From contig NZ_OY759719.1 of NCBI RefSeq assembly GCF_963662555.1, positions 1,818,985 to 1,882,984 on the forward strand: a DNA stretch of 64,000 nucleotides. Direction: 5' to 3'. The position numbers and the translations under genes are program-made. This document shows, one piece after another, positions 8,689 through 63,236 of this stretch. The first letter of the stretch is position 1, and each line of letters opens with the position of its first letter. Origin of the DNA: Thiomicrorhabdus sp. GTDB taxonomy: Bacteria > Pseudomonadota > Gammaproteobacteria > Thiomicrospirales > Thiomicrospiraceae. Under the pieces are notes generated by a model that was given only the letters and a program-made list of their open reading frames with translations, ran no database searches and was not told where the DNA came from.

Positions 8689-8706
8689 TTTACCAGGCCT
8701 GGTAAA
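8689..8706. repeat. iterated palindrome TTTACCAGGCCTGGTAAA, intergenic copy
   Basis: A perfect 18-bp palindrome between the GT4 and marC genes. It is one of four 18-bp copies in the window (also 27429, 45892 and 62782). Confidence 0.9.
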
Positions 8707-8741
8707 TTGACAATAAATCAAAGTGTATTTTTAAAAGCTTA

Positions 8742-8777
8742 TTCAAATAAAACTTCAAACAAAGCTTCAAATAAAAC
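8742..8777. repeat. 12-bp tandem repeat ending at the marC stop codon
   Basis: TTCAAATAAAAC, TTCAAACAAAGC, TTCAAATAAAAC in direct succession. The third unit ends exactly where the marC stop codon begins (8778). Confidence 0.7.
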
Positions 8778-9401
8778 TTAGCTTAATATAGGAATATTAA
8801 AACCCGTAGAGATGCCTAATAGCATCAACTGCACACCAATAACAGTAAGAATCAACCCCATTAAACGTGTGATGATACTCATACCACCTTCTCCAATAAC
8901 GGTCAAAATTTTAGAACTAAAAATAAAACAGGCAAAAGTAATGAGGCAAAGCACAAAAAATACCGATACCGTAACAATAATTCCCGTAAAACCGCCTGTG
9001 GCAGAATAATTCATCGCCGTCGCAATCGTACCTGGACCAGCCAATAATGGCATTGCCAATGGAGATACCGCAATATCGCCTTCATCACTGTTTTCAGCTG
9101 AATGTAATTTTGAGCCAGAACCATTCAACATATGATAACCAACAATAAAAACCAAAATACCACCCGCTATTCTTAGAGCTGGAAGGCTGATACCAAATGC
9201 TTGAAATATGAATTTACCGAGTAAAGAAAAGGCTAAAATCACCACAAAAGTTATCACAATAGCTTTTGCGGCAACGCGAAACTGCTCCGATGACTCTTTT
9301 TCTCCTACCAGGCCTACAAATGCGGCTGTATTAGCGATTGGGTTCATAATGGCAAAAAAACCCAAAAACACAGTAATTATCTGCGTATATAAATCACTCA
9401 T
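8778..9401 (-). CDS. MarC-family integral membrane protein
   Basis: A 207-residue membrane protein with six hydrophobic segments. The family hallmarks are FLGFFAIMNPIANTAAFVGL near the N-terminus, the mid-protein AMPLLAGPGTIATAMN, and RLMGLILTVIGVQLMLLGI at the end. MarC/UPF0056 proteins are inner-membrane proteins of unsettled function; the old link to multiple antibiotic resistance has not held. The gene stands alone. Confidence 0.85.
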   Translation of the reverse strand: MSDLYTQIITVFLGFFAIMNPIANTAAFVGLVGEKESSEQFRVAAKAIVITFVVILAFSLLGKFIFQAFGISLPALRIAGGILVFIVGYHMLNGSGSKLHSAENSDEGDIAVSPLAMPLLAGPGTIATAMNYSATGGFTGIIVTVSVFFVLCLITFACFIFSSKILTVIGEGGMSIITRLMGLILTVIGVQLMLLGISTGFNIPILS

Positions 9402-9649
9402 CTCATATCTCTTAGTTATTCTTTAATTATCAATATTGGTTATTGATTGTACTTAGCCAGCAAATAAAAACGTAGCTTTTTAACGAATATTTATTTAGAA
9501 GAGCTTTATAAGTTTTGTACTGAAATACAAAATTAAAATAATTGCATAGGAAAATGCAATGAAGAAGTTCATCAAGGTTAAAGTAAATATATGTTTATGT
9601 TAAGCTTTTAATTGTATGATTGATTTTAACTCAAAGAAGAGGTATCAGT

Positions 9650-10087
9650 ATGAATACAACCATCGGCTATGCAATCCTTGCAGATCTCGGAAACATTAAA
9701 GTCTTTTCGATTGATCAAACAGAGCAAAAAACAGTTTCGTTACACGCTTATCAGTCTATTGAAAATGCCGAAAGCCACGCTAAACTCTCTGAAATCTATA
9801 GCGATAAAGCTGGAAACTTTTCCAACTCAGTCTCAAGCAGACAAAGTTCCTATGAAAGTAAAGAAGGAATGAAGCAAACTCAACAGCTAATCGAAAATTT
9901 GAGTGCGTTTATCAATGAATTTGCAGAGCAGCATAATCACAAACTCTACCTGTCCGTATCGAATCCTATTCACACACAAATCAAAGAAAAACTAAGTGAT
10001 TCAACTCTTGCCAAAATCAAAGCCTTTTTAGCTAAAGATCTTACCCAACAAAAAATTGAAAATATAATGAAAGCCTTTGAGCTCTAA
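9650..10087 (+). CDS. host-attachment-like (PF10116-type) small protein
   Basis: A 145-residue soluble protein. The start used is ATG 9650, preceded by AGAAGAGG; an in-frame ATG 30 bp upstream lacks such a site. The N-terminus reads TIGYAILADLGNIKVFSI and the C-terminus IKAFLAKDLTQQKIENIM. This matches the layout of the Host_attach/baeRF-like family: an opening strand with a short hydrophobic ADxxxxKVF segment and a closing KDLTxxxxxxI helix. Residues 60-90 are polar and Ser-rich. The function is unknown and the family assignment is by pattern only. Confidence 0.55.
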   Translation: MNTTIGYAILADLGNIKVFSIDQTEQKTVSLHAYQSIENAESHAKLSEIYSDKAGNFSNSVSSRQSSYESKEGMKQTQQLIENLSAFINEFAEQHNHKLYLSVSNPIHTQIKEKLSDSTLAKIKAFLAKDLTQQKIENIMKAFEL

Positions 10088-10293
10088 AAACTGCAACAAT
10101 CAAAAGCTAAAGTTAACTAGTCATGTTAAATCGGGGTTCTGTGCTAGGCTTCGCTATAAGCTAAGCCGCTAAGCCATAACCCTAAGTACAACTTCAACCC
10201 TGACAGCTCAGCGGTTGAAAACCTTAATTTATCCGCCACGTAAATTATCCGCCACATAAACATAAGTCATAAATCACAAATAAAGATGGCAAG

Positions 10294-10956
10294 TTAAATA
10301 TCGCTCATTAATTTATGTAATTCAAATTCAGTAAAATCTGATAACTGTCTTAATTTTATATGAGATATATCAAATTTTTCATCTCCAAACTCCATTGGAG
10401 ATGGAACAGCTACCGTTTTCATATTTGCTTTTTTAGCGGCCATTAGTCCTGAAAATGAATCTTCAATAGCAATACATTTTGACGGTTCAACGTTTAACTT
10501 TTTTGCAGTAGATAAATAGACAGCCGGATGGGGTTTACCTTTTTCTACTTCATCAGAAGAGGATATCGCTTGGAAATAACTGGAAATTTCGAGTTTGCTT
10601 AACACTACCGAAATCAACTGGGAAGGCGAGTTTGTTGATAAACCTATTTTAAAGTTTCTTTTCTGAAAGAAATCTAGAGCCTCTTTCACTCCACCTATTG
10701 CTTGACCTCTCTCGTAAATAAGAGCTTCAACACGGTCAATAACTTCATTTTCAACTTGTTCTAAACTTTTGCCCGACCAAGGAAAATAGCTATACCAAAA
10801 AGCGGTAACTTCTTTAGTTGTCATTGCCGCACTTTTAGCTGACAACTCCTCACTTACCTTTACGCCAACAGAAGAAAACACCTGCTTTTCTGCCTCTTTC
10901 CACATAGGTTCAGAGTCAATTAAAACACCATCCATATCAAAAATTACTGCTTTCAT
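10294..10956 (-). CDS. hxpB: HAD-superfamily sugar phosphatase, HxpB type
   Basis: About 220 residues. The nucleophile motif is FDMDGVLIDSE (Asp7, Asp9 from the start used). Motif II is GLSTNSPS, the Lys motif KGKPHPAVY, and motif III AIEDSFSGLMAAKKANM. The cap includes AFWYSYFPWSG, close to WYARQPWNG of E. coli YniC/HxpB, a 2-deoxyglucose-6-phosphatase-like hexitol phosphatase. The chosen ATG (10956) follows GGAAATC; an upstream in-frame start would add 12 residues. The physiological substrate is a guess. Confidence 0.8.
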   Translation of the reverse strand: MKAVIFDMDGVLIDSEPMWKEAEKQVFSSVGVKVSEELSAKSAAMTTKEVTAFWYSYFPWSGKSLEQVENEVIDRVEALIYERGQAIGGVKEALDFFQKRNFKIGLSTNSPSQLISVVLSKLEISSYFQAISSSDEVEKGKPHPAVYLSTAKKLNVEPSKCIAIEDSFSGLMAAKKANMKTVAVPSPMEFGDEKFDISHIKLRQLSDFTEFELHKLMSDI

Positions 10957-11106
10957 TTGATGATTTCCATATAACGCCAAGTTAACCACCACACAAACTC
11001 ATTTTTGAAGCTTATACAACAATGCTTGAAGCTGGCACAAGAACCAGACATTAGGAAGTTTGAGTCTGTGTGTTTTTACGAAAGAGGTTAAAGTTTAGAT
11101 AAGCAC

Positions 11107-11144
11107 GTGCCCTATTTTTTAGTATGAAATACTAAGCTAGGCAC
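11107..11144. other. nested hairpin downstream of the cold-shock gene
   Basis: TTAGTAT-GAA-ATACTAA (11119-11135) is enclosed by GTGCC (11107-11111) and GGCAC (11140-11144). It lies about 60 bp past the end of the cold-shock-domain gene. No clear T-run follows on the minus strand, so it may be a 3' RNA structure rather than a simple terminator. Confidence 0.4.
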
Positions 11145-11204
11145 TTTTAGATAACAAAACAACTACTACTTGTAATTACCACCTTTTATATCGGCGGTAA
11201 GAAC

Positions 11205-14368: not shown

Positions 14369-14370
14369 CA

Positions 14371-16562: not shown

Positions 16563-16602
16563 AAAAACCCACTATGCTTTTACCAGGCCTGGTGGGTTTT
16601 TT
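16563..16602 (+). terminator. terminator downstream of purB, loop contains the iterated palindrome
   Basis: AAAAACCCAC (16563-16572) pairs with GTGGGTTTTT (16592-16601) and is followed by T. The loop contains most of the 12-bp palindrome ACCAGGCCTGGT (16582-16593), so two alternative folds compete. Confidence 0.75.
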
Positions 16603-17935: not shown

Positions 17936-18346
17936 CTACTTTTCTATCATACACTTTGAATAACTTGAGCTATCCATCTCAACCACTTCAACCGTTATTA
18001 CCATTGAATGTTTAACTAATGATTGATTACTTTGGCCAATATATTGATTTAGAGAAGTTAATATCGCTTGAGATAACGTCTGTTTTTCAATATCCGTTTT
18101 ACCTACATGCGTTTTACAAACCGCATGTATAAAACCCGTATTAATTAATCCAAGTTTATAAAACTCAGTAGCATAAGTTCTGACTTTTATATTCTCTGTA
18201 TTAACAATATTGGTATTTGCCACTGCTTCAAATACACAATTTACCAGGCCTGGTATGCCTTGCGGCAGACCACACTCTGTGTGATCAGAGGGTAAATCTT
18301 TAGATTCAAAAGAATCTTGACTGTATTCAATAACAATATGCGGCAT
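17936..18346 (-). CDS. 5-carboxymethyl-2-hydroxymuconate isomerase-like (tautomerase) protein
   Basis: A 136-residue protein beginning M-P-H-I-V-I-E-Y-S, with Pro2 as the expected catalytic N-terminal proline of the CHMI/tautomerase fold. Other matches are VFEAVANTNIVNTENIKVRTYATEFYKLG and a C-terminal strand HSMVITVEVVEMD. The homolog in homoprotocatechuate degradation is HpcD, but no other genes of that pathway are nearby, so the true substrate is open. The gene contains one iterated palindrome read as P-G-L-V. It lies 42 bp from the protease gene upstream. Confidence 0.75.
   Translation of the reverse strand: MPHIVIEYSQDSFESKDLPSDHTECGLPQGIPGLVNCVFEAVANTNIVNTENIKVRTYATEFYKLGLINTGFIHAVCKTHVGKTDIEKQTLSQAILTSLNQYIGQSNQSLVKHSMVITVEVVEMDSSSYSKCMIEK
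18243..18254. repeat. iterated palindrome ACCAGGCCTGGT inside the CHMI-like gene
   Basis: Exact 12-mer, read on the coding strand as P-G-L-V. Confidence 0.9.
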
Positions 18347-18388: not shown

Positions 18389-21334
18389 CTAAAGCGTAAT
18401 AATCTCAAATTCAGAATCCGCCAATAACTCAGCACCACCAGTATTGGTTAATACGGCTGAAGAAGTATTCTCAGTGGTTAAATACTTGTCTGCCATTTCG
18501 CGTAATTCTTGAATGGTAGTTGAGATTACACCTAAACGGTAAGCCATACGAATGTCATGCGTACGGCCATATAAATCTTGGAAAAACGCCTTTTTCATTT
18601 CACCTGCTGGTGAACCTGGCTTATCCATAGAGCTGATCACATTTAAGATCGCTTCATCCACTTTGGCTTGTGTGGCCTCCGAACTCATTAGCCACTCTTT
18701 GGCACGTTTAAAGTCCGCATAGGTTTCTAATAAACGAGGATCACGATATGAGTAGAAAACAAAGGCCGATGCTTCAGCATTGTACGTTGCACCACCACCA
18801 TAAGCACCGCCCTTTTCACGAATTGATGAATGTAAAAAACCATTACGTAAACAAGCACCTAAAACCGATAATTTAGCCGCATCTTCATGATCTGACGGCA
18901 CTGCTGGATAGGCTAATGCACAGAAATTAACTTGAGTACTGGTTACCCAGGCCTGGTTAATTGGTTGTTGATTAGCAGTAAATTCAAATCCTGGCATAGC
19001 CGTATTGGCATTTTGAGCGTTTTCCATAGCTGATTGCATGGTTTCAAGTGCCGAATCCATGCCCGTTTCATCACTTACAACTAAACCTTGTTTAGTCGAT
19101 TGTTTAATCTTATTTTGAATTGAACCGAGCCCATCACTCAAGCTATGCATCGCATCGGTTGAATCCTGAATCTCTTTATGCAATTTTTTAATATATTGAA
19201 TGCCTTTGAAACCAGAACGATCAAACTTCCAACGAGCCGCTGGCGTAAAGTTTTGTACTGCAGCCATCATTGCCTGACCATGACCATTACCGGTTACACC
19301 GTGATCTATTGAAGAGCGAATTTGCGAAACTAAATCTTTTAGGCGATTGGTTTCATCAAAACGAGCCTCATTTAAGGTTTCATTTAATAGTTCAGCCATA
19401 GGCAATTGGTTTCGATTCAATGCCTTAGAAGATAATATAAAGTGGCTATGATAACCTTGTGGCTCACCTATTTTAGAGTGAACACTTGAGCGTGCGGAGA
19501 TACCACCTGAGATTTCTGCTTGATAAGATTGCATTTGAATGTAATCTCTTTTGCTGGTGCCCACTTCCGTTAAACAGCTATTAAACAATGGCATTAAAGC
19601 TTGCTCTTGCTCTGTTAAGGCAGGTAAATCCACAATCAACTGTTCGTAAGTTAAACCATTCGTTCCACACTGATAACTCTTAACAGACATATCTGCAATT
19701 TGAGATATATGGGCTGAATACTGTTTAATATCAGCAGGAATATCGTCTTTAGTTACTTCAGGTAAAATGCTAGGATCGTCTTCTTGCGATTGGCGTTCTT
19801 CTAACGCCAAAGCTTGCTCGATAATGGCCTGCTTTTCTGATTCCGATAGGTTGGCTTTAATCTCTTCTAACTTAGCCTTTTCAGCCTTTTCTTTTTTGGC
19901 AGAAAGCTCCGTATCTGGCTTCATGGTTAAACGAACACGGTGCGTATTATCTAATAATAAGGTTTTTACCAGGCCTGGTATAAAGTCTGGAGACTTCACT
20001 TCGTCCTCTAGCTTTTTAAGGGCTGAATCAGCATCTAATAACGCAATTGGGTCTCCATCATGCAAAGCACCAGCCAGAGAGTGTAATATTAATTGTAATC
20101 CGTAAGGGTAACTATCACCGCCTACTTCACGTTGAGACAACTCTAATTGATGAAGCATCGCTTCGACTTGTGACTGATCAACACCTTCTTTAGCAATACG
20201 TTGAAGTTCGTTTAAAATCAACTCCTCAATCGCTTGAGCATGCTCTGGTTCAGAACCTTGCACACCCACAACAAATGCCATCTCTTTATTTGATTCTTCA
20301 AATCCACAAAGTGGCGATGGAGCATTAGCCAACTCAGTTTCTTCAAGTACTTTACGCAGAGGTGAAGCACTGTTATCTAATAAAACAGCAGACAATAAAT
20401 GCCCTCGTAAAACCTGCAAAGGATCTTGGTTTTGACCTAACAACCACCCCAAAACAATATGAGTTTTATTAGAGACATCTTCTTCATCCAATGCATAGCT
20501 CGACTCAACCACTTTAGGTTCTGAATAACGAGGTTCTAAACCAACATGTACTTGAGGCACGGTATCTTTAAAACGTTCTAATGCCAAACTTTCAAACTGT
20601 GTTTGATGCTCAATCGCTGAAATTTCACCATACGTCATAAACACGGCGTTAGACGGGTGATAATGAAGTTTGTGAAAATCTAAAAGTTGTTGATGAGTTA
20701 GGTTTGGAATATCCTCTGGCTCCCCACCACTGTTGTAATGGTAGGTACTGGTTGGATAAAGTTGTGCTGAAAACTCTTGCCACAAAGTTGAAACAGGCGA
20801 ACTCATGGCCCCTTTCATCTCATTAAACACCACGCCTTTGTAGGTTAGAGGTGAATCTGGATTTGTCATCTCTTCAAATTCAAAACGATGGCCTTCTTGG
20901 GCAAAATCTAGAGCATCTAAATTAGGGAAGAACACCGCATCCATATAAACCTGTAATAGGTTTTGAAAATCTTTACGGTTTTCAGTCGCAAATGGATACG
21001 CTGTCCAATCGCTTGAAGTAAACGCATTCATAAAGGTGTTTAACGAGCGACGGATCATCATAAAGAATGGATCACGTACTGGATATTTCTCACTTCCGCA
21101 TAAGGTTGTGTGCTCTAAAATATGTGCTACACCAGTAGAATCCATCGGTACCGTTCGTAACCCCACCAAAAATACATTTTGCGGATCATCAGCCGCTAAG
21201 TGATAGTGTGCCGCTCCAGTTACTTTATGTTCAAAATGCTGAATAGTGACATTTAGCGAGTCAATAAAGTGCTCACCTTTAAACTCAAATGCAGGGTGGG
21301 AATTTTGTGCCGATTGGATTTTATTTTCGCTCAT
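18389..21334 (-). CDS. M16C metallopeptidase, PreP-like
   Basis: A 981-residue zinc protease. The inverted zinc motif His71-Ile-Leu-Glu74-His75 is followed by TTLCGSEKYPVRDPFF and the family-typical MIRRSLNTFMNAFTSSDWTAYPF. A second M16 half contains REKGGAYGGGATYNA, the substrate-binding segment. Length and order fit the presequence-protease group, which degrades peptides inside a closed chamber. There is no signal peptide, so it is probably cytoplasmic. Two palindrome copies lie in the coding region (18947 and 19968). Confidence 0.88.
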   Translation of the reverse strand: MSENKIQSAQNSHPAFEFKGEHFIDSLNVTIQHFEHKVTGAAHYHLAADDPQNVFLVGLRTVPMDSTGVAHILEHTTLCGSEKYPVRDPFFMMIRRSLNTFMNAFTSSDWTAYPFATENRKDFQNLLQVYMDAVFFPNLDALDFAQEGHRFEFEEMTNPDSPLTYKGVVFNEMKGAMSSPVSTLWQEFSAQLYPTSTYHYNSGGEPEDIPNLTHQQLLDFHKLHYHPSNAVFMTYGEISAIEHQTQFESLALERFKDTVPQVHVGLEPRYSEPKVVESSYALDEEDVSNKTHIVLGWLLGQNQDPLQVLRGHLLSAVLLDNSASPLRKVLEETELANAPSPLCGFEESNKEMAFVVGVQGSEPEHAQAIEELILNELQRIAKEGVDQSQVEAMLHQLELSQREVGGDSYPYGLQLILHSLAGALHDGDPIALLDADSALKKLEDEVKSPDFIPGLVKTLLLDNTHRVRLTMKPDTELSAKKEKAEKAKLEEIKANLSESEKQAIIEQALALEERQSQEDDPSILPEVTKDDIPADIKQYSAHISQIADMSVKSYQCGTNGLTYEQLIVDLPALTEQEQALMPLFNSCLTEVGTSKRDYIQMQSYQAEISGGISARSSVHSKIGEPQGYHSHFILSSKALNRNQLPMAELLNETLNEARFDETNRLKDLVSQIRSSIDHGVTGNGHGQAMMAAVQNFTPAARWKFDRSGFKGIQYIKKLHKEIQDSTDAMHSLSDGLGSIQNKIKQSTKQGLVVSDETGMDSALETMQSAMENAQNANTAMPGFEFTANQQPINQAWVTSTQVNFCALAYPAVPSDHEDAAKLSVLGACLRNGFLHSSIREKGGAYGGGATYNAEASAFVFYSYRDPRLLETYADFKRAKEWLMSSEATQAKVDEAILNVISSMDKPGSPAGEMKKAFFQDLYGRTHDIRMAYRLGVISTTIQELREMADKYLTTENTSSAVLTNTGGAELLADSEFEIITL
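18947..18956. repeat. iterated palindrome core CCAGGCCTGG in the M16C gene
   Basis: Ten-base core; the context is A-CCCAGGCCTGGTT. Read as N-Q-A-W-V in the protease. Confidence 0.85.
19968..19979. repeat. iterated palindrome ACCAGGCCTGGT in the M16C gene
   Basis: Exact 12-mer, read as I-P-G-L-V in the protease. Confidence 0.9.
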
Positions 21335-25168: not shown

Positions 25169-26026
25169 TTATTTTATTATTGGTTTTTGTGCTAAAAAAG
25201 ATGCAACAGGTCGCCCATCATTTAATGTGTCTATTCTATCAATAATTATATTATAGCCCGCAAAAACTTGAGCTAACTCACCTGCCTTTAAAATAAAGTT
25301 AGGGTTTTTAGGTGAGTCAAACTTTTCGACGCCTTCTGTAAAGGTTTGAAATAATACAAATCCTCCAGGCCTGATTGCTTGCTGAATATAATCAAAACTT
25401 TCACGACTTAAAAAACGTACTGTGGTGATTAAATCAAATTGCTGCTCTGGCAAACAACCGTCTTTTTTGATGTCACAGCATTTAAACTTAACGTTAGCAC
25501 CAGATAAATTTGCTAATGTTTTGGAACGCTTTAATACTTTAGGTTCATGGTCAATAGCGATGACATTCATTCTATTTTTGGCTAAAAAGATGGCATCTCT
25601 TCCTCCGCCGCAACCTATATCTAAAACAGCTGGTCGCTTTGAGTCTTGTAAATGAAATGCGATTTTTGATTGGTTTAATAAGTCAACAAACTCATTAACC
25701 AACCCACATGGTGACCATAAAATTTTAGAGGCTGAACCTGATTCTACCAGGCCTGGTAATTGTGCAGACCAATCTTGCATCGCTTGATTAGAACGAATGA
25801 CTAATGAACCTGAAACTTCATAACCCTTACTATCTAGTAAGATACTGGCGGCTTCAATTTCATCTTTATTTCCGACTAAATAGAGTTTAGCTGGTGAGGC
25901 TGGTAACGCATTAAGGCTTTCTGGAAGAATCTCCCAACTTAGCCAAGTTGCATTTTTAATATGGCCTTGTTTAAAGTCTTCTAAAGAACGTAAATCAATA
26001 ATACCATCGGCTTTTTGAAAGACCAT
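25169..26026 (-). CDS. rhodanese-like/SAM-methyltransferase fusion protein
   Basis: 285 residues. Residues 1-95 resemble a rhodanese domain (IIDLRSLEDFKQGHIKNATWLSWE), but the active-site position reads VGNKDE with no Cys, so sulfur transfer is unlikely. Residues about 125-280 are a class I methyltransferase: motif I VLDIGCGGGRDAIFLA, VIAIDHEPKVLKRS, CCDIKKDG, and RPGGFVLFQTF, similar to TehB-type enzymes. It overlaps the truB stop by one base (TAATG), so the two are translationally coupled. The substrate is unknown. A palindrome copy encodes L-P-G-L-V. Confidence 0.75.
   Translation of the reverse strand: MVFQKADGIIDLRSLEDFKQGHIKNATWLSWEILPESLNALPASPAKLYLVGNKDEIEAASILLDSKGYEVSGSLVIRSNQAMQDWSAQLPGLVESGSASKILWSPCGLVNEFVDLLNQSKIAFHLQDSKRPAVLDIGCGGGRDAIFLAKNRMNVIAIDHEPKVLKRSKTLANLSGANVKFKCCDIKKDGCLPEQQFDLITTVRFLSRESFDYIQQAIRPGGFVLFQTFTEGVEKFDSPKNPNFILKAGELAQVFAGYNIIIDRIDTLNDGRPVASFLAQKPIIK
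25746..25757. repeat. iterated palindrome ACCAGGCCTGGT in the rhodanese-methyltransferase gene
   Basis: Exact 12-mer with flanking T and AA, read as P-G-L-V at the domain junction. Confidence 0.9.
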
Positions 26027-27424: not shown

Positions 27425-27450
27425 GCAATTTACCAGGCCTGGTAAATTGC
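27425..27450. repeat. iterated palindrome, longest copy (26-bp perfect palindrome)
   Basis: The 18-mer TTTACCAGGCCTGGTAAA (27429-27446) is extended perfectly by GCAA on the left and TTGC on the right. It sits between infB and its terminator-like hairpin. Confidence 0.92.
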
Positions 27451-32931: not shown

Positions 32932-34796
32932 TACAACAATCCATCAAGTGCAAAGTGGTGATTAATTCGCTTTTTAAAATCATCTACCACACCAAAACTT
33001 TGCTTAAGCAAGCCTTGTTGCATATGACTCAGTTCAGAAAGACGAATCTTATTATCAGGTATTTCACAACCATCCGCGAGCTGATGGAGCATAGATTCAA
33101 GCCTTAATGTATTTAAAAAGTTCAGGGTTTCACCGAGCTCAATACCAAACTCTTTTTCAAAAACGCCTGCATCCATAAGTGCTTTTATACGCCAATGAGT
33201 ATTGGTTTTTGAAATACCTGCCTCCAATGCATAACAACGCACACCATGTACAATACTAAAAATGCCGCCTTTTTTAATATCAATCACTTCATGGCCCGCT
33301 TCAGAATCAACAACCAGGCCTCCTAAAAAACCTATTGGTGTTTTAAATCTTAAAACTGAGACTGCAAAAAGTCGCAAAAAGTTTGAATATCGCTCTTTTT
33401 CATTTTGCAAAGTTTCTTTAAGCTCAGAAAGCCACTCTTTTTGACCAAATACCGCTTCGGCATCAAACAAAATAGCTGCATGCATAAAGTTTTCTTCAGA
33501 AGGATTTGCAAACCACTGGGCTACTTTAAGCATAAAATCAGATTGACTCATACGCCAATCTGTATTGGAAAGCATTATATTTCCTGGACATGGAGGGAAC
33601 CCCATCTGTTGCAAAGTTTCTATAAAACTTGAGGAAAACTGTTCTAATTCAATGAGCTCGTTATCCGTCAATTCATCAGAGTAAATAAGTGCATTATCTT
33701 GGTCTGTACGAATCACTTGTTCGGATCGACCTTCACTACCCATAACAAAAATACAAACCTTATTTGCTAAATGTGTTGGTAATAAAAACTCAACAAGCTT
33801 ATAAATCATCTTACGGTGTAATTCGTTAACAAGCTTAGCAATATAATGAGTTTTAATTCCTTTACGATTAAGGTTACCAATTAACCCATCAATCTGCTCT
33901 CCAAGCACAACTAAATCCGTTACAGACTGTGCTTGCTCAACTTTCAACAAGACCAAACCTGACTGATTTGCAAACAAACTCATTAAATCTTTTTGATGCA
34001 AAAATCCCCTATATCCTTGATCTCCTCTTACAACTAGACGGTCAATTTGAAAGCGAGTCATCTTCAGCAATGCATTAAAAAGATAGTCAAATTCATGAAC
34101 GGTTTGAACTGGTTTATTTGCTAATTTACCGAGTGTTAAAGAAGCTAGATTCGGCTCATTCTTTGCCAGAAGTTTTAATATATCTGTAGAAGTAACTATA
34201 CCGATTTCAGAATCATCAAACTCAACTATACAAGCATCCGTTCGCTTCTCTACCATTAGTTTTGCGGCGTGATGCAAGGTAGATTCTTTACTTAAAGAAA
34301 CATAAGACTGTAAAGGTGCTGAACAGACGGTATCCATCATCACCTCAGTTGAGGTAGCTGACTGAACAGCTTGATGAATACGGTTTAATTTTTCAACAAT
34401 TGAAGAATTAAAGAAATGGGCAAAATCATGATTGGTTTCAAAGGCCTTTATAAAGAGCTTTGCAGGTAGCTTATAAGCAATAGCCTCCTCTTGCACTTCA
34501 TAATGGGAAGTACGCTCGGCCTCAGACAAAATATCGGTATCACCAAAAAAACCACGCACACTATAGCGAGATGTAACCTCACCATCATCAATCTCTGCCA
34601 CTTTTCCTTTAATTAAAATATAGAGAAAGCTCTTATCTAAAGCGTCTTTAAATTCAATCACCTTCTTGTGAGGTAAATAAACTACATTCATACTATCAGC
34701 AAGTTCATTTAATAATGCTTCTTCAAGATGATCAAACGGAGGGATTTGTGCAAGAAAATCTCGCTGCTGAGTAATTGCCATACTATTAATAACCAT
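32931..34796 (-). CDS. cNMP-CBS-DUF294 putative nucleotidyltransferase/signal protein
   Basis: 621 residues. A cyclic-nucleotide-binding domain (residues about 15-130) is followed by a CBS pair (about 165-290, with KLMVEKRTDACIVEF and GFLHQKDLMSLF). A DUF294 nucleotidyltransferase-like domain carries MGSEGRSEQVIRTDQDNALIY around residue 350, and a helical substrate-binding C-terminus follows. The GS..R.E..-D.D signature is that of GlnD-like nucleotidyltransferases. A target protein near the acetate permease is an inference. Met6 is an alternative start. A terminator separates it from actP. Confidence 0.85.
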   Translation of the reverse strand: MVINSMAITQQRDFLAQIPPFDHLEEALLNELADSMNVVYLPHKKVIEFKDALDKSFLYILIKGKVAEIDDGEVTSRYSVRGFFGDTDILSEAERTSHYEVQEEAIAYKLPAKLFIKAFETNHDFAHFFNSSIVEKLNRIHQAVQSATSTEVMMDTVCSAPLQSYVSLSKESTLHHAAKLMVEKRTDACIVEFDDSEIGIVTSTDILKLLAKNEPNLASLTLGKLANKPVQTVHEFDYLFNALLKMTRFQIDRLVVRGDQGYRGFLHQKDLMSLFANQSGLVLLKVEQAQSVTDLVVLGEQIDGLIGNLNRKGIKTHYIAKLVNELHRKMIYKLVEFLLPTHLANKVCIFVMGSEGRSEQVIRTDQDNALIYSDELTDNELIELEQFSSSFIETLQQMGFPPCPGNIMLSNTDWRMSQSDFMLKVAQWFANPSEENFMHAAILFDAEAVFGQKEWLSELKETLQNEKERYSNFLRLFAVSVLRFKTPIGFLGGLVVDSEAGHEVIDIKKGGIFSIVHGVRCYALEAGISKTNTHWRIKALMDAGVFEKEFGIELGETLNFLNTLRLESMLHQLADGCEIPDNKIRLSELSHMQQGLLKQSFGVVDDFKKRINHHFALDGLL

Positions 34797-45891: not shown

Positions 45892-45909
45892 TTTACCAGG
45901 CCTGGTAAA
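45892..45909. repeat. iterated palindrome TTTACCAGGCCTGGTAAA in the dnaE-aat spacer
   Basis: Perfect 18-mer 43 bp upstream of dnaE in a 281-bp divergent spacer, otherwise AT-rich with no ORF. Confidence 0.9.
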
Positions 45910-46130: not shown

Positions 46131-46883
46131 ATGACAACCCCGCAAAACGCTGTACCCTTTTGGCTTGATACTCAACCGGTATTTTTTCCACCAAGCCACT
46201 TAGCCATGACCGAGCCTGACGGTTTGTTAGCAGTGGGTGGAGACTTAACCCCAGAATGGTTATTGATGGCTTACAGCAAAGGGATATTTCCGTGGTTTAA
46301 TCCAGGCGAACCTATTCTTTGGTGGTCACCCAATCCAAGAAGCGTGCTGTTTATTGATGAATTTAAAATCAGTAAAAGTTTACGAAAAACCATAAAAAAA
46401 CATCTAAAGTCTAACCTCTTAAAGGTCACCTTTGACCAAAACTTTAGTGATGTAATGCAAGCGTGTTCAGAGGTTCCTAGAGAAGGTCAAAATGGCACCT
46501 GGATTACAGATGACATGCTTAAGGCTTACACCTCTTTACATAATGCAGGTCATGCTCATTCAGTTGAGGTTTGGTTTGATAATGAATTGGTTGGGGGTCT
46601 TTATGGCGTAAGCATTGGCAAGATGTTTTATGGCGAATCCATGTTTAGCAAAATGACAGACTCTTCAAAAATTGCTTTAACAGCTCTGGCAATGCAACTT
46701 AAACAATGGGGTTTTAAGGTGATTGACACTCAAGTTGAAACCCCTCACCTAAATAGTTTGGGGGCTCAATTAATATCTAGAGAGAGCTTTGAAGCTCTAA
46801 TAAACGAACTCACTCAACAAGCTTTTGCACCTGGAAAATGGACCTTATCTGAAAACTGGCCCGATTTAATTGTTAACTCTTAA
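46131..46883 (+). CDS. aat: leucyl/phenylalanyl-tRNA-protein transferase
   Basis: 250 residues; adds Leu/Phe to N-terminal Arg/Lys of proteins, marking them for ClpS-ClpAP (both genes are at 51.5-54.1 kb). Signatures are GLLAVGGDLTPEWLLMAYSKGIFPWFNPGEPILWWSPNPR and GGLYGVSIGKMFYGESMFSKMTDSSKIAL. It diverges from dnaE. Confidence 0.96.
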   Translation: MTTPQNAVPFWLDTQPVFFPPSHLAMTEPDGLLAVGGDLTPEWLLMAYSKGIFPWFNPGEPILWWSPNPRSVLFIDEFKISKSLRKTIKKHLKSNLLKVTFDQNFSDVMQACSEVPREGQNGTWITDDMLKAYTSLHNAGHAHSVEVWFDNELVGGLYGVSIGKMFYGESMFSKMTDSSKIALTALAMQLKQWGFKVIDTQVETPHLNSLGAQLISRESFEALINELTQQAFAPGKWTLSENWPDLIVNS

Positions 46884-47098: not shown

Positions 47099-47500
47099 AT
47101 GTATAACCACCCAAGTAATCGACCCCGCTTTTTAAGTTTAACTGCGTTTAAGTTTCCGTTAAATGCCAAACTCTCAGCTTTGCACCGCATAACGGGGCTT
47201 ATGTTGATTGTCAGCTTACTTGGCTATTTGGCCTTATTTCATTTAATCCTATTTCATCCAAACGTCACAATGACAAGTGTCTTTAGCCACTGTATACATA
47301 AAATACTGTTTGTATTTTTCTGGTCATCGATAACTTTTCACTGGTTAACCGGTTTACGCCACATATTGGCACAACATTTCACCCACCCCAGTTCCTACAA
47401 AAGAATTAATGGTTTTGTTGTTAGCTATATCATCATAGCTGTATGGTTGCTAATTACTTTATGGATTTTTTACCAGGCCTGGTCAAGAAGTTATCTATGA
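47099..47500 (+). CDS. sdhC: succinate dehydrogenase cytochrome b556 subunit
   Basis: 133 residues, three membrane helices. It has RPRFLSLTAFKFPLNAKLSALHRITGLML, with the typical SxxHRxTG signature, and FHWLTGLRHILAQHF with the likely haem-ligand His. It anchors the complex and binds quinone. ATG 47099 follows AAGAGG; an in-frame TTG one codon earlier is unlikely. The stop overlaps sdhD by ATGA. Confidence 0.9.
   Translation: MYNHPSNRPRFLSLTAFKFPLNAKLSALHRITGLMLIVSLLGYLALFHLILFHPNVTMTSVFSHCIHKILFVFFWSSITFHWLTGLRHILAQHFTHPSSYKRINGFVVSYIIIAVWLLITLWIFYQAWSRSYL
47472..47483. repeat. iterated palindrome at the sdhC/sdhD junction
   Basis: Exact 12-mer, read as Y-Q-A-W near the end of SdhC, 14 bp before the sdhD start. 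Confidence 0.9.
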
Positions 47501-47981: not shown

Positions 47982-49820
47982 ATGACCAAATGTAAAGATA
48001 ACGGTAAAGATAACGACCAACTTAATCAGCTACCAAGCCAAACATTTGATGCGGTAATTATCGGTGCTGGCGGAGCTGGTTTACGTGCCGCTTTACAACT
48101 GACAAATGAGATGAAATCCACAATTAAAATAGCCGTGGTCTCTAAGGTGTTTCCTACTCGCTCACATACAGTAGCTGCCCAAGGTGGAATTAATGCCGCC
48201 TTAGGTAACGTAACACCTGACAACTGGCAATGGCACATGTATGACACGATTAAAGGCAGCGACTATTTAGGTGATCAAGACGCTATTGAATTTATGTGTA
48301 AAGAAGCGGCAGAAATTGTTAGAGAGCTTGAACATTATGGAGTGCCCTTCTCTAGGCTAGAAAACGGCAAAATTTATCAACGTGCTTTTGGTGGGCAAAG
48401 TCAAAACTTTGGAGAAGACCAGGCCTATAGAACATGTGCTGCCGCTGACCGCACAGGTCATGCTATTTTGCATTCACTTTATCAACAAAATATTCGCCAA
48501 GGTACCATCATATTTGAAGAGCATTATGCGATTGACTTGATTAAAGACATCCAAGGCGATATTTGTGGCGTTGTGATTATGAATATTCACAATGGTGAAT
48601 ATCAAATACTTAACAGTCAACACATCATCCTTGCAACCGGAGGTGCTGGGCAAATCTTTAGAACCAATACCAATGCGAGCATTAATACCGGCGATGGCTT
48701 AGGCATGGTTTTACGTGCTGGTTATCCTTTGCAGGACATGGAGTTTTGGCAGTTTCATCCAACTGGTGTTGCCGGTAAAGGCATGTTAATTTCAGAAGCG
48801 GCTCGTGGTGAAGGTGGCGTGCTAAGAAACGCGAATGGTGAAGCCTTTATGGGTAAATACGCACCACATGTTAAAGACCTCGCCTCTCGCGATGTGGTTT
48901 CTAGAGCCATTGCTATTGAAGTCAATGAAGGCCGTGGCTGTGGTCCAAATAAAGATTATGTATTACTTGACCTAACACATCTAGATGAACAAACAATCAA
49001 AGAGCGTTTACCTGGAATTAGGGATATTAGCCTAACCTTTATGGGCATTGATCCGATTGAAAAAGCCGTGCCCATTTTTCCCACCTGCCATTATATGATG
49101 GGAGGCATTCCAACCAACCTAAAGGGTCAAGTTATTAGCCAAGATAAAGAAGGTAACGCTGTAATTATTAATGGCTTATACGCCATTGGTGAATGTGCTT
49201 GTGTATCAGTTCACGGAGCTAACCGTTTAGGTGGTAATTCTTTGCTAGACATTATTGTATTTGGTCGTAAAGCAGCACGAACCGTTTTAGAACAAATACA
49301 GCAAACGAACTCAACTAAAGAGATGGATATTCACTCTTTAGAAAGCATACTAAAACGCATTAATAGATGGACAACACCGAGCAATCCAATACCTACCTCA
49401 AAAACCAACCATGACAGCGTAAGTTTAATAAAACAAGATTTGCAAAAAATCATGGAGCAAGGATGCAGTGTTTTTAGAGATGAGAGCACAATGCAACAAG
49501 CATTAGACAAACTCCCTGCTATTGAAGCCCGTTTAAAAACAGTGAACTTAACAGATGCCAGTGATATTTTTAATCTAGAAAGACTTTCTGCTTTTGAACT
49601 TGAGAACTTGATTGATATCGCTTATGCAACCGTAGTATCAGCATTAGCTCGTAAAGAGAGTCGAGGTGCACATTCTCGTATTGATTATCAACAACGAGAT
49701 GACCAGGCCTGGTTAAAACACAGCTTGTATTTTAAACAAGCTCATAGATTAAGTTATAAACCAGTCAATTTTTCACCCAAAACTCACGCCCCTTTTGAAC
49801 CAAAAGAACGTGTGTATTGA
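47982..49820 (+). CDS. sdhA: succinate dehydrogenase flavoprotein subunit
   Basis: 612 residues. FAD loop AVIIGAGGAGLRAALQL, covalent-flavin His in RSHTVAAQGGINAALG, substrate region QFHPTGVAGKGMLISEAARGEGG, and HGANRLGGNSLLDIIVFGRKAA. The C-terminal RKESRGAHSR is typical. It oxidises succinate to fumarate. It is 125 bp downstream of sdhD, so the CDAB order is kept. Confidence 0.97.
   Translation: MTKCKDNGKDNDQLNQLPSQTFDAVIIGAGGAGLRAALQLTNEMKSTIKIAVVSKVFPTRSHTVAAQGGINAALGNVTPDNWQWHMYDTIKGSDYLGDQDAIEFMCKEAAEIVRELEHYGVPFSRLENGKIYQRAFGGQSQNFGEDQAYRTCAAADRTGHAILHSLYQQNIRQGTIIFEEHYAIDLIKDIQGDICGVVIMNIHNGEYQILNSQHIILATGGAGQIFRTNTNASINTGDGLGMVLRAGYPLQDMEFWQFHPTGVAGKGMLISEAARGEGGVLRNANGEAFMGKYAPHVKDLASRDVVSRAIAIEVNEGRGCGPNKDYVLLDLTHLDEQTIKERLPGIRDISLTFMGIDPIEKAVPIFPTCHYMMGGIPTNLKGQVISQDKEGNAVIINGLYAIGECACVSVHGANRLGGNSLLDIIVFGRKAARTVLEQIQQTNSTKEMDIHSLESILKRINRWTTPSNPIPTSKTNHDSVSLIKQDLQKIMEQGCSVFRDESTMQQALDKLPAIEARLKTVNLTDASDIFNLERLSAFELENLIDIAYATVVSALARKESRGAHSRIDYQQRDDQAWLKHSLYFKQAHRLSYKPVNFSPKTHAPFEPKERVY
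49702..49713. repeat. iterated palindrome in sdhA
   Basis: Exact 12-mer, read as D-Q-A-W-L near the SdhA C-terminus. Confidence 0.9.
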
Positions 49821-49841: not shown

Positions 49842-50540
49842 ATGCAACTGATTATTAGCCGCTTTAATCCAGAAAACGACACTACCCCTTACGATCAAAC
49901 CTATCACATTGACGATGAGTTAATTGCCGACGATATGATGTTACTAGGTTTATTGCAGTTGGTTCGCGAACAAGACCCAACGTTGGGTTTTCGCTCCTCA
50001 TGCCAAGAAGGCGTTTGTGGTTCCGATGGGATGAACGTAAATGGAAAAAACCATTTAAGCTGCATAACACGTGTATCAGAGTTATCACAACCGATTGTCA
50101 TTAAACCTTTACCAGGCCTGCCAATTATTAAAGATTTAATCATTGATATGGCGTTATTTTATAGCCAATACAAAATAGTAGAACCCTATTTACAAACCAG
50201 TGATTTAGACCCAAATCATGAACATTTACAATCTCCAGAACAAAGAGCACAGCTTGATGGCAGTTATGAGTGCATTTTATGCGGTTGCTGCTCAACCGCT
50301 TGCCCCTCTTTTTGGTGGAACCCAAATCAATTTGCAGGCCCAGCGGCCCTATTAGCCGCCCAACGTTTTGTGGTCGATTCTAGAGACATTAAACATATTG
50401 ATCGCATTACACAACTAGATAACCCAAACACGGTGTTTCGCTGTAGGCATATTCAAAACTGTACTGACGCCTGTCCAAAAGGTCTTAACCCAAGTAGAGC
50501 GATTCAAGAATTAAAATCCATTATGGTTAAAGAGTTATAA
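49842..50540 (+). CDS. sdhB: succinate dehydrogenase iron-sulfur subunit
   Basis: 232 residues. 2Fe-2S ligands lie in SSCQEGVCGSDGMNVNGKNHLSC-type region; 4Fe-4S and 3Fe-4S ligands in CILCGCCSTACPSFWW and CRHIQNCTDACPKGLNP. ATG 49842 is preceded by AAAAAGGA at good spacing; an in-frame TTG 18 bp earlier is rejected. Confidence 0.95.
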   Translation: MQLIISRFNPENDTTPYDQTYHIDDELIADDMMLLGLLQLVREQDPTLGFRSSCQEGVCGSDGMNVNGKNHLSCITRVSELSQPIVIKPLPGLPIIKDLIIDMALFYSQYKIVEPYLQTSDLDPNHEHLQSPEQRAQLDGSYECILCGCCSTACPSFWWNPNQFAGPAALLAAQRFVVDSRDIKHIDRITQLDNPNTVFRCRHIQNCTDACPKGLNPSRAIQELKSIMVKEL

Positions 50541-57474: not shown

Positions 57475-58011
57475 TTACTGCTCCAAAAACGTATTACAAA
57501 CCAATTCGCAATCACCCTTATCTGTTGTCACATAAGCTGATTCTCCAGAAATAGTTACCGACATTTCGGTAGTTCTATCTACCAGGCCTGCTAATTTTTG
57601 AATTTGTTTATTATCGAAATAATAAAAACTTGCTTTTAACTTACTAAATTTAGCCTCGCCCTGCTTCCACCAAACTTCGGCCTTACTATTAAAGCTATAC
57701 ACTTTAACCTCACGTGCTAACGTTGTGGCTTTTTTCACTCTATCAAATGCTGGCTCACCAATATCTATCCATAACATGAGTTGGTCATCTAATGTTCTTA
57801 CCCAAATATCTGGATCTTCAATTGAGCTTAGACCTTTGGTGAAATCTAAAAACTCTTGGTAATTCCAGCAATATGCCATCACTCTTGCCATCATCCGTTC
57901 CACATTTTCAGATGGATGCATAGCAACCGTTAAGGCCATAGAATCATATAGATCACGGTTCATATCAGAAAGTGAAATTCGGAATTTATAAATAGTTGGT
58001 TTTAATGCCAC
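57475..58011 (-). CDS. yaeQ: YaeQ-family protein
   Basis: 178 residues. KPTIYKFRISLSDMNRDLYDSMALTVAMHPSEN, DIWVRTLDDQLMLWIDIGEPAFDRVKKA and YFDNKQIQKLA match YaeQ over its full length. The fold is a PD-(D/E)XK nuclease-like core; activity is unproven. Confidence 0.92.
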   Translation of the reverse strand: MALKPTIYKFRISLSDMNRDLYDSMALTVAMHPSENVERMMARVMAYCWNYQEFLDFTKGLSSIEDPDIWVRTLDDQLMLWIDIGEPAFDRVKKATTLAREVKVYSFNSKAEVWWKQGEAKFSKLKASFYYFDNKQIQKLAGLVDRTTEMSVTISGESAYVTTDKGDCELVCNTFLEQ

Positions 58012-60586: not shown

Positions 60587-62028
60587 TTCAACTCACTAAA
60601 TCTAAACTTATCAAACAATATACGCTTTATTTTGCTCTTATATTTACATTAATGGGAGTAATGTACTTTGCAATTAGTATGAGTATTTCAAAGTACTATT
60701 TAGAGCAAGTACAAACCAAATTACACATCAATATTGCTACAACGATTATTCAAGATTTCAAAATCATTGAAAAACAAAAACTTGATTCAAACGCAATAAA
60801 AGCAGCCTTTAATCGTTACATGTTGCTAAACCCACACTTAGAGCTCTATTTGCTTGATTCAAAAGGGAATATTATTGATTATTCAGCGGACCCTAAAAAA
60901 ATTAAACGACAAAAAGTCAGCTTGCAACCCATTAACTATTTTTTAAGCCATCAACCTTTAAAAAGCTTTCCAATGGGGGATGACCCTAGACAGGCGAATC
61001 ATACAGAACCCTTTTCTGTTGCTCCATTACCTAATGGCGGTTTTTTATACGTCATTATTCAAAGCCAAATTGAAAAAGAAGCTAACAGACAATTACAAGA
61101 AAGTATTTTGCTAAAAGTCAGTGCTGTAGCTTTTGTCGTTAGTGCAATTATTGGATTTATCTTAGGTGGACTGTTGTTTTTTCATTTGACCAAAAGAATT
61201 AACGATTTGTCATATAGCGTAACGACTTTTTCAAAAAATCGCCAAATCCCGATACCACCACCCAAAAAACTCCGTGATGAATTAGATCAATTACATTTGG
61301 ATATTATGACAATGTCTAACGAATTAACCGAGCAAATGGAGCACCTTAGTCGTATTGATCAAAACCGTCGTTTTATGATTTCAAGCCTATCTCATGACCT
61401 TAGAACTCCATTAACCAATTTATTAGGTTACATAGAGCAAACCATGCAAAACTATGATGATAACAACCTAAAAACAGCCTATCAAAACGGCATTAAACTT
61501 AAGCATTACTTAGATCAAATATTTGAATTTTCAAAACTAGAGCTTCCACAAAAAGCACTAAATAGACAAGAACTATCGGTTAATGAGTTTTGTAATGATA
61601 TTTATATAGAGTATAAAAATAATAATCCATCTAGGGATTTTAAATTACAGTTTGACGGATTATTTATCTATAAATTTGACGCTAACCAACTTGAACGGGC
61701 CGTATGCAACTTACTGGATAATGCCATAAAATACGGTACGGAAGATATTTGTTTAGCCTGTGCAATGACTGAACAATGGCTAGAGATATCCATTTGCAAT
61801 ACAGGGGTTCAAGCTTTTATATTGCCAGATCTACAAAAAGAATTTCTGTTACAACCAGATAATCTATTTAATCTTAAAACTCAAGCAGAGCAATCACATA
61901 ATCCCCTTCCTAATTACTCTGGATTAGGGTTAACTATTGTGCATTCCATTGTTGAAAAACATAACGGACAACTTGTCTATCGACGTAAAGAAAATAGTAA
62001 CTGTTTTGTGATTAGACTACCCATGTAG
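60583..62028 (+). CDS. membrane sensor histidine kinase
   Basis: About 481 residues from ATG 60583, overlapping the regulator stop. A membrane helix near the N-terminus (LYFALIFTLMGVMYFAISM), a periplasmic sensor of about 125 residues, a second helix (VVSAIIGFILGGLLFFHL), then a HAMP-like linker. H box SSLSHDLRTPLTNLLGY, N box LLDNAIKYG and G box YSGLGLTIVHSIVEKHNG. The G1-like segment is partly degenerate (LEISICNTGVQAFI lacks the usual DxGxGI), so ATP-binding details are atypical. Confidence 0.9.
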   Translation: MIQLTKSKLIKQYTLYFALIFTLMGVMYFAISMSISKYYLEQVQTKLHINIATTIIQDFKIIEKQKLDSNAIKAAFNRYMLLNPHLELYLLDSKGNIIDYSADPKKIKRQKVSLQPINYFLSHQPLKSFPMGDDPRQANHTEPFSVAPLPNGGFLYVIIQSQIEKEANRQLQESILLKVSAVAFVVSAIIGFILGGLLFFHLTKRINDLSYSVTTFSKNRQIPIPPPKKLRDELDQLHLDIMTMSNELTEQMEHLSRIDQNRRFMISSLSHDLRTPLTNLLGYIEQTMQNYDDNNLKTAYQNGIKLKHYLDQIFEFSKLELPQKALNRQELSVNEFCNDIYIEYKNNNPSRDFKLQFDGLFIYKFDANQLERAVCNLLDNAIKYGTEDICLACAMTEQWLEISICNTGVQAFILPDLQKEFLLQPDNLFNLKTQAEQSHNPLPNYSGLGLTIVHSIVEKHNGQLVYRRKENSNCFVIRLPM

Positions 62029-62029
62029 C

Positions 62030-62061
62030 CTAGTAACCTAGTTCTCTAGTTGTCTAGTAAC
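62030..62061. repeat. 8-bp tandem repeat after the kinase stop
   Basis: CTAGTAAC, CTAGTTCT, CTAGTTGT, CTAGTAAC, beginning 2 bp after the kinase stop codon. Confidence 0.6.
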
Positions 62062-62111
62062 TTTGTAGGTAGTTTTTTATAAATAACTGCCTACAGTCAA
62101 AACAACTAAAA

Positions 62112-63236
62112 CTAATTTTTAACATTTTCGTCGTTAAGATACTCAACAACCTCTTTAACACTTCCTTTAAAGACAACTGCATGGTTATTTTTTTGCATTT
62201 GATAGTCGTACATTGGGTCGTAGTATTCGGCTAAAAGAGTTTTTATCCAGGCCTGGTGTTCTTCTGTTGAGTTTTGATTTAACTGAGCTTGCATAGCAAA
62301 ATCAAATTGGCTCATGACTCTCTGATAACGCTCACCACCCAACCGTTTTTGAATACGTTGCATAGCGGCACGCATAAAGTCTTCCCATTCTGCAATATTG
62401 TTATACTCGGCTTGTGCCTCAATAACATACTCATCCAATGTAATCGCAACACGCTCATCCATGGGAGTATCTACCACCACTCTTGAACCGCTTTTAAAGC
62501 ATTCAAACAGTTCTTTAGAAAAGTTTACCGAGCCAATATTACGCCCTTCATCTTCAATCACTAACTGTTTAGGTTGTTTTTCCATAAAACGAATCAAGGC
62601 CATAGCTAGATTGTTTTCAAAATTAATTTGTGTAGGTTGTGGTGTGGCGTGACGCCCAAAGGCCGAACCTCGATGATGAGCCAGACCTTCTAAATCAATG
62701 GCATTGTTTAATTTATGAATTGCCAAGGTTTTACCTGAACCTGTTCTACCTGCTAACACAATCGGTTTTACATTTTGTTGATTTACCAGGCCTGGTAAAT
62801 TATCTAAGTAATCAATTAAATAACGTCTAAAGGCTTTATAACCACCTTTTAACCGCACTATTTCACGCCCAGCATCTTGCAACCATTGTTGCGAAATTTT
62901 TGAGCGCATACCACCTCTAAAACAGTAGAGTAATGCAGTTGGATTCGCATCCATAAACTCAATCCAAGACTGTACTCTTGGTTCACGGGTTTGCTCATTA
63001 ACCAACTTATGCCCCAACTCTACTGCTGCGGCATTGCCATTTTGTTTATAACAAAGCCCTACTTTTTGGCGTTCGTCATCATTCATTAATGGCAAATTAG
63101 TCGCAGAGTTAAATGCCCCCTGAATAAATTCTACTGGAGCACGCACGTCAATTAATGGCGTTTGATTTAGTACAATCGATTTAAAATCATCGGTCTGTGG
63201 CAGATCATTTGTAAACTCAGTAATCTGAACCGTCAT
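62112..63236 (-). CDS. mnmH: tRNA 2-selenouridine synthase
   Basis: 374 residues. The rhodanese domain has LIDVRAPVEFIQGAFNSA and the active Cys in YCFRGGMRSKISQQWL; a P-loop domain has VLAGRTGSGKTLAIHKLN. It converts 2-thiouridine to 2-selenouridine at the tRNA wobble base using selenophosphate. It overlaps selD by one base (TAATG), which supplies selenophosphate. Two palindrome copies lie inside. Its 3' end is duplicated at 58860-59080. Confidence 0.95.
   Translation of the reverse strand: MTVQITEFTNDLPQTDDFKSIVLNQTPLIDVRAPVEFIQGAFNSATNLPLMNDDERQKVGLCYKQNGNAAAVELGHKLVNEQTREPRVQSWIEFMDANPTALLYCFRGGMRSKISQQWLQDAGREIVRLKGGYKAFRRYLIDYLDNLPGLVNQQNVKPIVLAGRTGSGKTLAIHKLNNAIDLEGLAHHRGSAFGRHATPQPTQINFENNLAMALIRFMEKQPKQLVIEDEGRNIGSVNFSKELFECFKSGSRVVVDTPMDERVAITLDEYVIEAQAEYNNIAEWEDFMRAAMQRIQKRLGGERYQRVMSQFDFAMQAQLNQNSTEEHQAWIKTLLAEYYDPMYDYQMQKNNHAVVFKGSVKEVVEYLNDENVKN
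62247..62256. repeat. iterated palindrome core in mnmH (3' end)
   Basis: CCAGGCCTGG, read as H-Q-A-W-I. The decayed copy at 58971-58980 reads CCAGACCTGG. Confidence 0.85.
62781..62800. repeat. iterated palindrome, 20-bp copy in mnmH
   Basis: The 18-mer TTTACCAGGCCTGGTAAA (62782-62799) with one extra A-T pair, read as L-P-G-L-V-N. Confidence 0.92.

Follow-up and report, generated by a model that had tools for sequence, protein, structure and literature searches.

A high-copy 12-bp palindrome with lineage-specific dialects in Thiomicrorhabdus and its relatives as a putative uptake-sequence-like tag

Uptake sequences have been described for two bacterial families, the Pasteurellaceae and the Neisseriaceae (PMC12616744, PMC3630211). 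The uptake signal sequences (USS) of the Pasteurellaceae, with the extended forms eHin-USS AAAGTGCGGTCAATTTT and eApl-USS AACAAGCGGTCAAATTT, reach 31 to over 900 copies per Mb (PMC12616744). The DNA uptake sequences (DUS) of the Neisseriaceae fall into eight dialects with the core CTG, reach some 1900 copies or more in Neisseria and have a known receptor, ComP (PMC3630211). For both, inverted pairs have been described as terminators (PMC12616744, PMC3630211, PMC1852404). A different kind of highly iterated word is the cyanobacterial palindrome HIP1 with its alternates, the genomes of which carry cognate methyltransferases (PMC4390886). All statements on these systems rest on excerpts of the four articles. 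Here, a stretch of 64,000 nt (the window) from the genome of Thiomicrorhabdus sp. was analyzed, in which an initial annotation had noticed the 12-bp palindrome ACCAGGCCTGGT scattered through genes and spacers. The analysis was extended to the complete genome (G000; a single contig of 2,696,250 bases, 2.70 Mb) and to a comparison set of 95 genomes, 60 of the same family (G000–G059) and 35 of other families. From the sequence patterns, we consider it somewhat more probable than its alternatives taken together that the motif is a putative self-recognition tag of the genome, of the uptake-sequence kind.

In the window, ACCAGGCCTGGT occurred ten times, while the maximum in 100 dinucleotide shuffles was zero. 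The whole genome contained 488 copies (181 per Mb) and no copy of the reversed, uncomplemented motif, which served as control word for all counts. Markov and k-mer statistics as well as coding or intergenic assignments were based on an evenly spread sample of 464 kb (the window and 20 further stretches of 20 kb each), the latter by a crude caller of open reading frames (ORFs) of at least 70 aa. In this sample, 96 copies of ACCAGGCCTGGT were observed versus 0.04 expected from an order-2 Markov model, and unbiased rankings of 8-mers and 10-mers were headed by CAGGCCTG and CCAGGCCTGG. Thus, the count was far above the Markov expectation, and the motif spread beyond the window. Beside the 96 exact copies, 34 copies with one mismatch were found, 28 of which deviated at the outer two arm positions. 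The flanks were graded, and the fuller symmetrized consensus reads AATTT-ACCAGGCCTGGT-AAATT.

The 12-mer was largely restricted to part of the family. Within the genus, 0 to 718 copies per genome were counted, and the word was also present in the sister genera g3 and g5 and in part of g6; the 35 genomes of other families contained at most one copy each. The reversed control was absent from the family and occurred three times in G067. Counts of the 8-bp core CAGGCCTG were bimodal among the 60 family genomes, with 236–1173 copies in 31 of them and 0–74 in the other 29 (reversed control 0–36). The 31 rich genomes (more than 200 copies) comprised 15 of the 32 genomes of the genus, G033, all nine of g5 and six of the nine of g6. 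In G002, G005, G008, G018 and G025, CAGGCCTG was retained and the outer bases had drifted. NCBI taxonomy lists Thiomicrorhabdus under Piscirickettsiaceae. The family as used here is presumably the Thiomicrospiraceae of GTDB, and g6 is taken by us to be Hydrogenovibrio.

Some relatives carried other words instead. The palindrome ACCAGGCCTGGT/CAGGCCTG is referred to as dialect D1. Dialect D2, the palindromic ACCGGCCGGT, was present in 1025 copies in G023 (control 1) and in no more than 15 copies in every other family genome. Three g6 genomes without the palindrome bore the non-palindromic dialect D3 (CCCARCCTGGCAGATTTT/CCTGGCAGATTT), spelled CCCAGCCTGGCAGATTTT in G053 but CCCAACCTGGCAGATTTT in both G055 and G057. 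CCTGGCAGATTT reached 210, 194 and 229 copies in G053, G055 and G057, respectively, with at most nine in any other genome. Its copies were split almost equally between the strands (115/95, 105/89 and 122/107), their positions along the replichores being only partly listed; D1, being palindromic, has no orientation for which a skew along the chromosome, as in polar sequences of the Chi/KOPS type, could be scored. Compared by eye, CCAG-CCTGGCAGATT of G053 differs from CCAGGCCTGGTAAATT of G000 in that one G is deleted and two bases are substituted, changes that break the symmetry. Finally, G021 carried the non-palindromic AACAGGCCGGGT, flanked on one side by an A-tract (dialect D4, seen in a 40-kb sample only).

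The dialects were linked by a common core and register. The central CC was common to D1, D1', D2, D3 and D4, and in all of them (ten sites for D4) T was enriched at about +10 to +12, counted with the central CC as +1 and +2. In D3 and D4, the T-tract was present on one side only. For D1, the enrichment was seen in G000, G030, G015, G043 and G059, i.e., over a GC content of 38 to 54%, and was weak in G009 and G019.

No motif stood out clearly in 60–80 kb each of G003, G014, G020, G024 and G031, where the best words remained below z = 8, compared with 10 to 27 for the dialects. In G026, CGATCTGGTCA occurred seven times in 80 kb (0.1 expected; z 10.9, equal to D3 in G053); since no T-tract was present in the contexts seen, its status is doubtful despite the high z, and it may be a motif or a result of coding usage. 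A further 17 of the 60 family genomes had no assigned dialect and were sampled over at most 40 kb or not at all. As a separate observation, G037 of genus g7 carried five copies in 60 kb of GGGGTCCCCGACTTTT, a GC-rich near-palindrome with a T-tract, which is perhaps another dialect, in a genus without a ComEA-like gene. Repetitive-looking words in G020 and G055 (GCAGCTAAGA with 97 and CCACAGCGGA with 34 copies, respectively) were masked.

Individual sites were strongly conserved in close relatives. Aligned 10-bp cores of G000 were kept in 7/7 cases in G030, 4/7 in G015, 6/6 in G016, 8/8 in G009 and 3/3 in G019. Pooled over these five motif-rich relatives, 28 of 31 comparisons were kept (the same sites recur), versus 6–17% identity for all aligned 10-mers. 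In genomes with another dialect or without a clear motif (G003, G014, G020, G023, G024, G026, G031, G053, G055 and G057), none of 22 comparisons was kept, and neither was any of the two for G021. All three reading frames were used by the 43 coding D1 sites (22, 16 and 5), rather than the two read initially. Together with the genic D3 sites in both orientations and the conservation far above the flanks in close relatives, this supports the earlier view that selection or drive acts on the DNA and not on the protein. In a PNPase tree of 37 genomes, the D1 label required six changes compared with a mean of 12.6 after shuffling, two D3 rows formed one clade, and the D2 genome lay inside a clade of rows otherwise without dialect (support 100/99). 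This tree represents one gene, and eight of its 15 rows without dialect (G001, G004, G011, G012, G013, G017, G022 and G044) were screened for other words over at most 25 kb, G004 not at all.

D1 sites favored spacers at the 3' ends of genes. Intergenic sites accounted for 53 of the 96, although spacers made up 12.6% of the bases. Spacers between convergent genes held 12 sites in 7.6 kb, those between genes of the same direction 32 in 33.6 kb, and those between divergent genes 5 in 14.0 kb, with four sites at stretch edges. The density was thus lowest where the promoter-proximal sites of a transcription factor regulon would be placed. In 220 kb of the three D3 genomes, 27 D3 sites were found, 11 genic (5 on the same strand as the gene, 6 on the opposite strand) and 16 intergenic; eight of the intergenic sites formed four head-to-head pairs within about 40 bp, e.g., AAAATCTGCCAGGTTGGG...CCCAACCTGGCAGATTTT. 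Two hand-picked D3 pairs were predicted to fold into hairpins of −39.9 and −29.4 kcal/mol (z −7.3 and −7.4), i.e., terminator-like hairpins according to the folding model; for a D4 copy of G021 the values were −16.2 kcal/mol and z −6.2.

Mobile DNA differed in its content of sites. The second contig of G019, a congener of G000, has 96,830 bases, the same length as plasmid pTmrp1 of Thiomicrorhabdus aquaedulcis, to which its first 20 kb are identical. This one plasmid, counted on the contig up to 60 kb and on the named record for the remainder, contained 7 cores and 5 12-mers versus 44 and 28 expected at genome density (P 8e-12 for the cores). The 16-kb second contig of G052, which matched no plasmid record, had 2 cores. 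Counting against simple depletion, 100 kb of the 443-kb second contig of G016 contained 39 cores, about the chromosomal density; this contig may be chromosomal. In G000, the stretch from 54 to 74 kb, chosen as a gap, had no 12-mer and one core over 20 kb and encoded a phage-type integrase, a SIR2-domain gene (SIR2_2) and an HD-CE/HATPase gene. Within it, in an island at about 56.7–71.1 kb (G000:C1), the ORFs at 2706 and 13381 of stretch L273 begin alike by eye, as if the island had split a gene start and duplicated it. Among viral contigs, four stretches contained TTACCAGGCCTGGTAA and six CCCARCCTGGCAGATTT, each with a single site, and the non-palindromic dialect occurred once in IMGVR_UViG_637000325_000001. 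The number 637000325 is presumably an IMG genome id, possibly of a Thiomicrospira or Hydrogenovibrio strain.

Compared with USS, the family resembles the Pasteurellaceae in high copy number, a GC-rich core with a T-tract, dialects with a conserved core and inverted pairs in terminators, putative ones here (PMC12616744), and the tails of D3 (GGCAGATTTT) and D1 (GGTAAATT) look similar to GGTCAATTTT and GGTCAAATTT of USS when compared by eye. In contrast, the core is CCTGG/CAGGCCTG and not GCGG, D1 and D2 are palindromic, the family is another one, and no PilQ was found. With DUS, family-wide dialects with a fixed short core, their lack in some relatives, inverted pairs at terminators (putative ones here) and many copies in both genes and spacers are shared (PMC3630211); DUS, however, are continuous words without dyad symmetry. 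An uptake signal had been named initially, beside HIP1 and others, among the possible causes. Lineage-specific overrepresentation, the core and T-tract register common to the dialects, the inverted pairs resembling terminators together with the 3'-end bias, and depletion in one plasmid speak for it; the lack of the PilQ secretin speaks against it and leaves it short of proof.

If the motif is an uptake tag, a postulated surface DNA receptor would favor DNA with a core around CAGGCCTG and a T-tract roughly a helical turn away from the center. Free DNA of the same species would thereby preferentially be taken up and recombined in, motif-bearing alleles would replace motif-less ones, and the word would build up wherever genes and spacers tolerate it. 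A drift of receptor preference would be followed by hundreds of sites, giving a new dialect, palindromic or not, and where recognition was lost the sites would decay. Possible, if a little more doubtful than not, is the fuller proposal that Thiomicrorhabdus and its relatives have a third independent uptake-sequence system, which would operate without PilQ via a Tad or MSHA pilus, use a palindromic tag readable from either strand and switch between palindromic and non-palindromic dialects among sister species.

Several findings weigh against such a tag, the uptake apparatus being the main weakness. Canonical PilQ (TIGR02515) above the curated cut-off was found in none of the 60 family genomes compared with 27 of the 35 genomes of other families, and the motif-rich G042, G043 and G054 (completeness 100) yielded weak secretin matches only (best E 5e-17, 8e-26 and 2e-16, respectively). 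The pilus loci seen in G000 were only MSHA-like and Tad-like and house two of the weaker secretin matches. The MSHA-like locus encodes an AAA protein, a secretin, a TPR protein, a T2SSE ATPase with MshEN domain and a T2SSF protein; the Tad-like locus encodes a secretin with T2SS-T3SS_pil_N domain, a T2SSE ATPase, a T2SSF protein and a TadE match below cut-off. Tad pili have been reported, in the part of PMC8513845 consulted, to mediate DNA uptake in Liberibacter. No receptor candidate was found, whereas ComP is known for DUS. On the supporting side, G000 has both ComEC (PF03772), which 33 of the 37 family genomes examined encode, and a ComEA-like gene (TIGR00426 at E ≤ 0.001, in some cases below the cut-off), present in 51 of the 60 family genomes but in none of the four from g7. 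In the five relatives without a clear motif and the doubtful G026, ComEA was kept in six of six and ComEC in five of six genomes. Thus, these genes do not track the motif, and as tracers of its loss they were rejected for want of discrimination. Furthermore, DUS and USS are non-palindromic; among the dialects this holds only for D3 and D4, D1 and D2 being perfectly palindromic. Only 4 of 20 comparisons were kept in D1 genomes that had drifted or were more distant (G002, G005, G008, G018, G025, G033 and G059), the positions being mostly unshared. Finally, the half-site GCCTGGTAA occurred 146 times in G000, only 7 times without a preceding CAG; since the half alone was not enriched, a separate reading of each D1 half was rejected, and the core counts only with both its halves, as would suit a symmetric protein.

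This last point leads to the most serious alternative, namely that the motif is the binding site of a homodimeric chromosome-organizing or DNA-repair protein (a nucleoid, nucleoid-occlusion or recombination factor) that needs widespread sites, with dialects tracking changes of the protein. The perfect dyad symmetry of D1 and D2, the requirement for both halves and the strong conservation of sites in close relatives are in line with it, as is their distribution. The spacing of the first 100 sites (first 563 kb) fitted an exponential (Kolmogorov–Smirnov p 0.65), counts in 20-kb bins were even (mean 4.3, variance 3.5), and even the longest stretches free of the 12-mer, of up to 25 kb and one of them holding an island, were rejected as special regions, being within what chance spacing allows. 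On the other hand, D3 and D4 are non-palindromic with a one-sided T-tract, D3 forms inverted-pair hairpins, the density is low between divergent and high between convergent genes, and several near-complete relatives have no detected motif. This explanation is considered unlikely, yet it deserves to be taken seriously.

Improbable, in our estimate, is an element like HIP1, whose maintenance would depend on an orphan DNA methyltransferase and on mismatch repair directed by methylation. As in cyanobacterial HIPs, a palindrome of high frequency gives way to a different one in some relatives and is missing from others (PMC4390886). However, HIP genomes carry cognate methyltransferases, whereas no gene of the methylase families PF00145, PF01555 or PF02086 was found in G000, where other families (Type I, Eco57I-type etc.) were unsearched; the methylation branch of the causes named initially is thus not supported. 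The three families were likewise absent from nine further of the 31 D1 carriers (G010, G015, G018, G025, G027, G033, G039, G043 and G054; ten with G000), from G023 with D2 and from G053 with D3. Moreover, only 4 of the 34 one-mismatch copies showed C-to-T or G-to-A changes, and in the excerpt of PMC4390886 HIPs are replaced by palindromes (some degenerate), without mention of a T-tract.

There is hardly a better case for an element acting at the RNA level, i.e., a sequence family that arose by the spread of a transcription terminator or processing hairpin. The 3'-end bias and the terminator-like folding of the two D3 examples and the D4 copy would suit it, but 43 of the 96 D1 sites lie inside genes, genic D3 sites are found in both orientations, and the bare D1 palindrome folds into a weak hairpin (−7.1 kcal/mol, z −2.4). 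A mobile element dispersed over the genome or a homing repeat, such as repetitive extragenic palindromes (REP/REPIN), would account for hundreds of copies and is most improbable of all, as the copies have no more in common than the 12-mer and a graded AT flank, are not confined to extragenic DNA, are depleted in the plasmid and occupy orthologous positions inside conserved genes of relatives.

All ten start positions listed initially for the 12-mer in the window were exact. The following copies are intergenic: 8692..8703, within the 18-mer TTTACCAGGCCTGGTAAA; 16582..16593, followed by GGGTTTTTT and kept in G016 and G009; 27432..27443; and 45895..45906, between divergent genes and adjoining dnaE. 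The copy at 27432 is the center of the one perfect palindrome of 26 bp that had been reported; its outer arms vary by species and are still symmetrical in G030, G016 and G009, G015 having no site there. The copy at 18243..18254 was kept in G016 and G009. A gene for an M16C/PreP-like peptidase (18389-21334, minus strand) contains the copy at 19968..19979 (kept in G030, G016, G009 and G019; CCAGGCCGGG in G005 and G021). The copy at 25746..25757 lies in an ORF (25169-26026, minus strand) and was kept in G030, G015, G016, G009 and G019. The copy at 47472..47483 is located between the ORFs 46131-46883 and 47982-49820 and was scored as coding by the crude ORF caller; that at 49702..49713, near the 3' end of sdhA, was kept in G030, G015 and G009, with other DNA in G003. 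The last copy, 62785..62796, lies within TTTACCAGGCCTGGTAAA in an ORF (62112-63236, minus strand) and was not kept in G015.

The two additional cores assigned to 18947 and 62247 were confirmed as starts of CCAGGCCTGG: 18947..18956 in the peptidase gene, kept in G030, G015, G016 and G009, and 62247..62256 in the ORF 62112-63236. The nine sites of CCAGGCCT placed near 5283, 7444, 9309, 25365, 32909, 33314, 48419, 50112 and 57582 were correct within one base, and the 8-bp core CAGGCCTG was located at 5284..5291 (second outer arm missing), 7445..7452, 25366..25373 (full CCAGGCCTGG at the same place in G030, G015 and G016), 50113..50120 and 57583..57590. The four copies of TTTACCAGGCCTGGTAAA that had been counted were recovered, while the single AGGCCT said to lack a preceding CC has a second at 34442. 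As side observations, a sequence of roughly TATGCCYWGYGGC downstream of the palindrome was common to four copies (18243 in the window and L181:14323, L191:13086 and L193:11141), and two further G000 copies (stretch L193, 16183 and 18802) had an identical 36-bp context, i.e., a local duplication.

The 12-mer string had no match in the open-licence literature searched, where CCAGGCCTGG was printed only in papers titled on drugs, DNA dynamics and the like. Among the papers listed for Thiomicrospira with palindrome (titles and abstract starts) and for "Thiomicro" with DNA uptake (titles), none dealt with the motif, and neither did the part of PMC6501319 consulted.

If an uptake tag is indeed present, a third family, whose dialects differ sharply and which shows apparent losses as well as a palindromic form, would provide a natural experiment on receptor preference and on hundreds of sites changing together. 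The interest lies in several dialects and several apparent losses among environmental sulfur-oxidizing bacteria, in which the hunt for the receptor is testable: an association of dialects with genes could reveal the receptor, and the right tag could make environmental bacteria transformable. If uptake is not the cause, a DNA-binding system new to knowledge would have stamped a word of 12–20 bp on these genomes, and this would be no less surprising.

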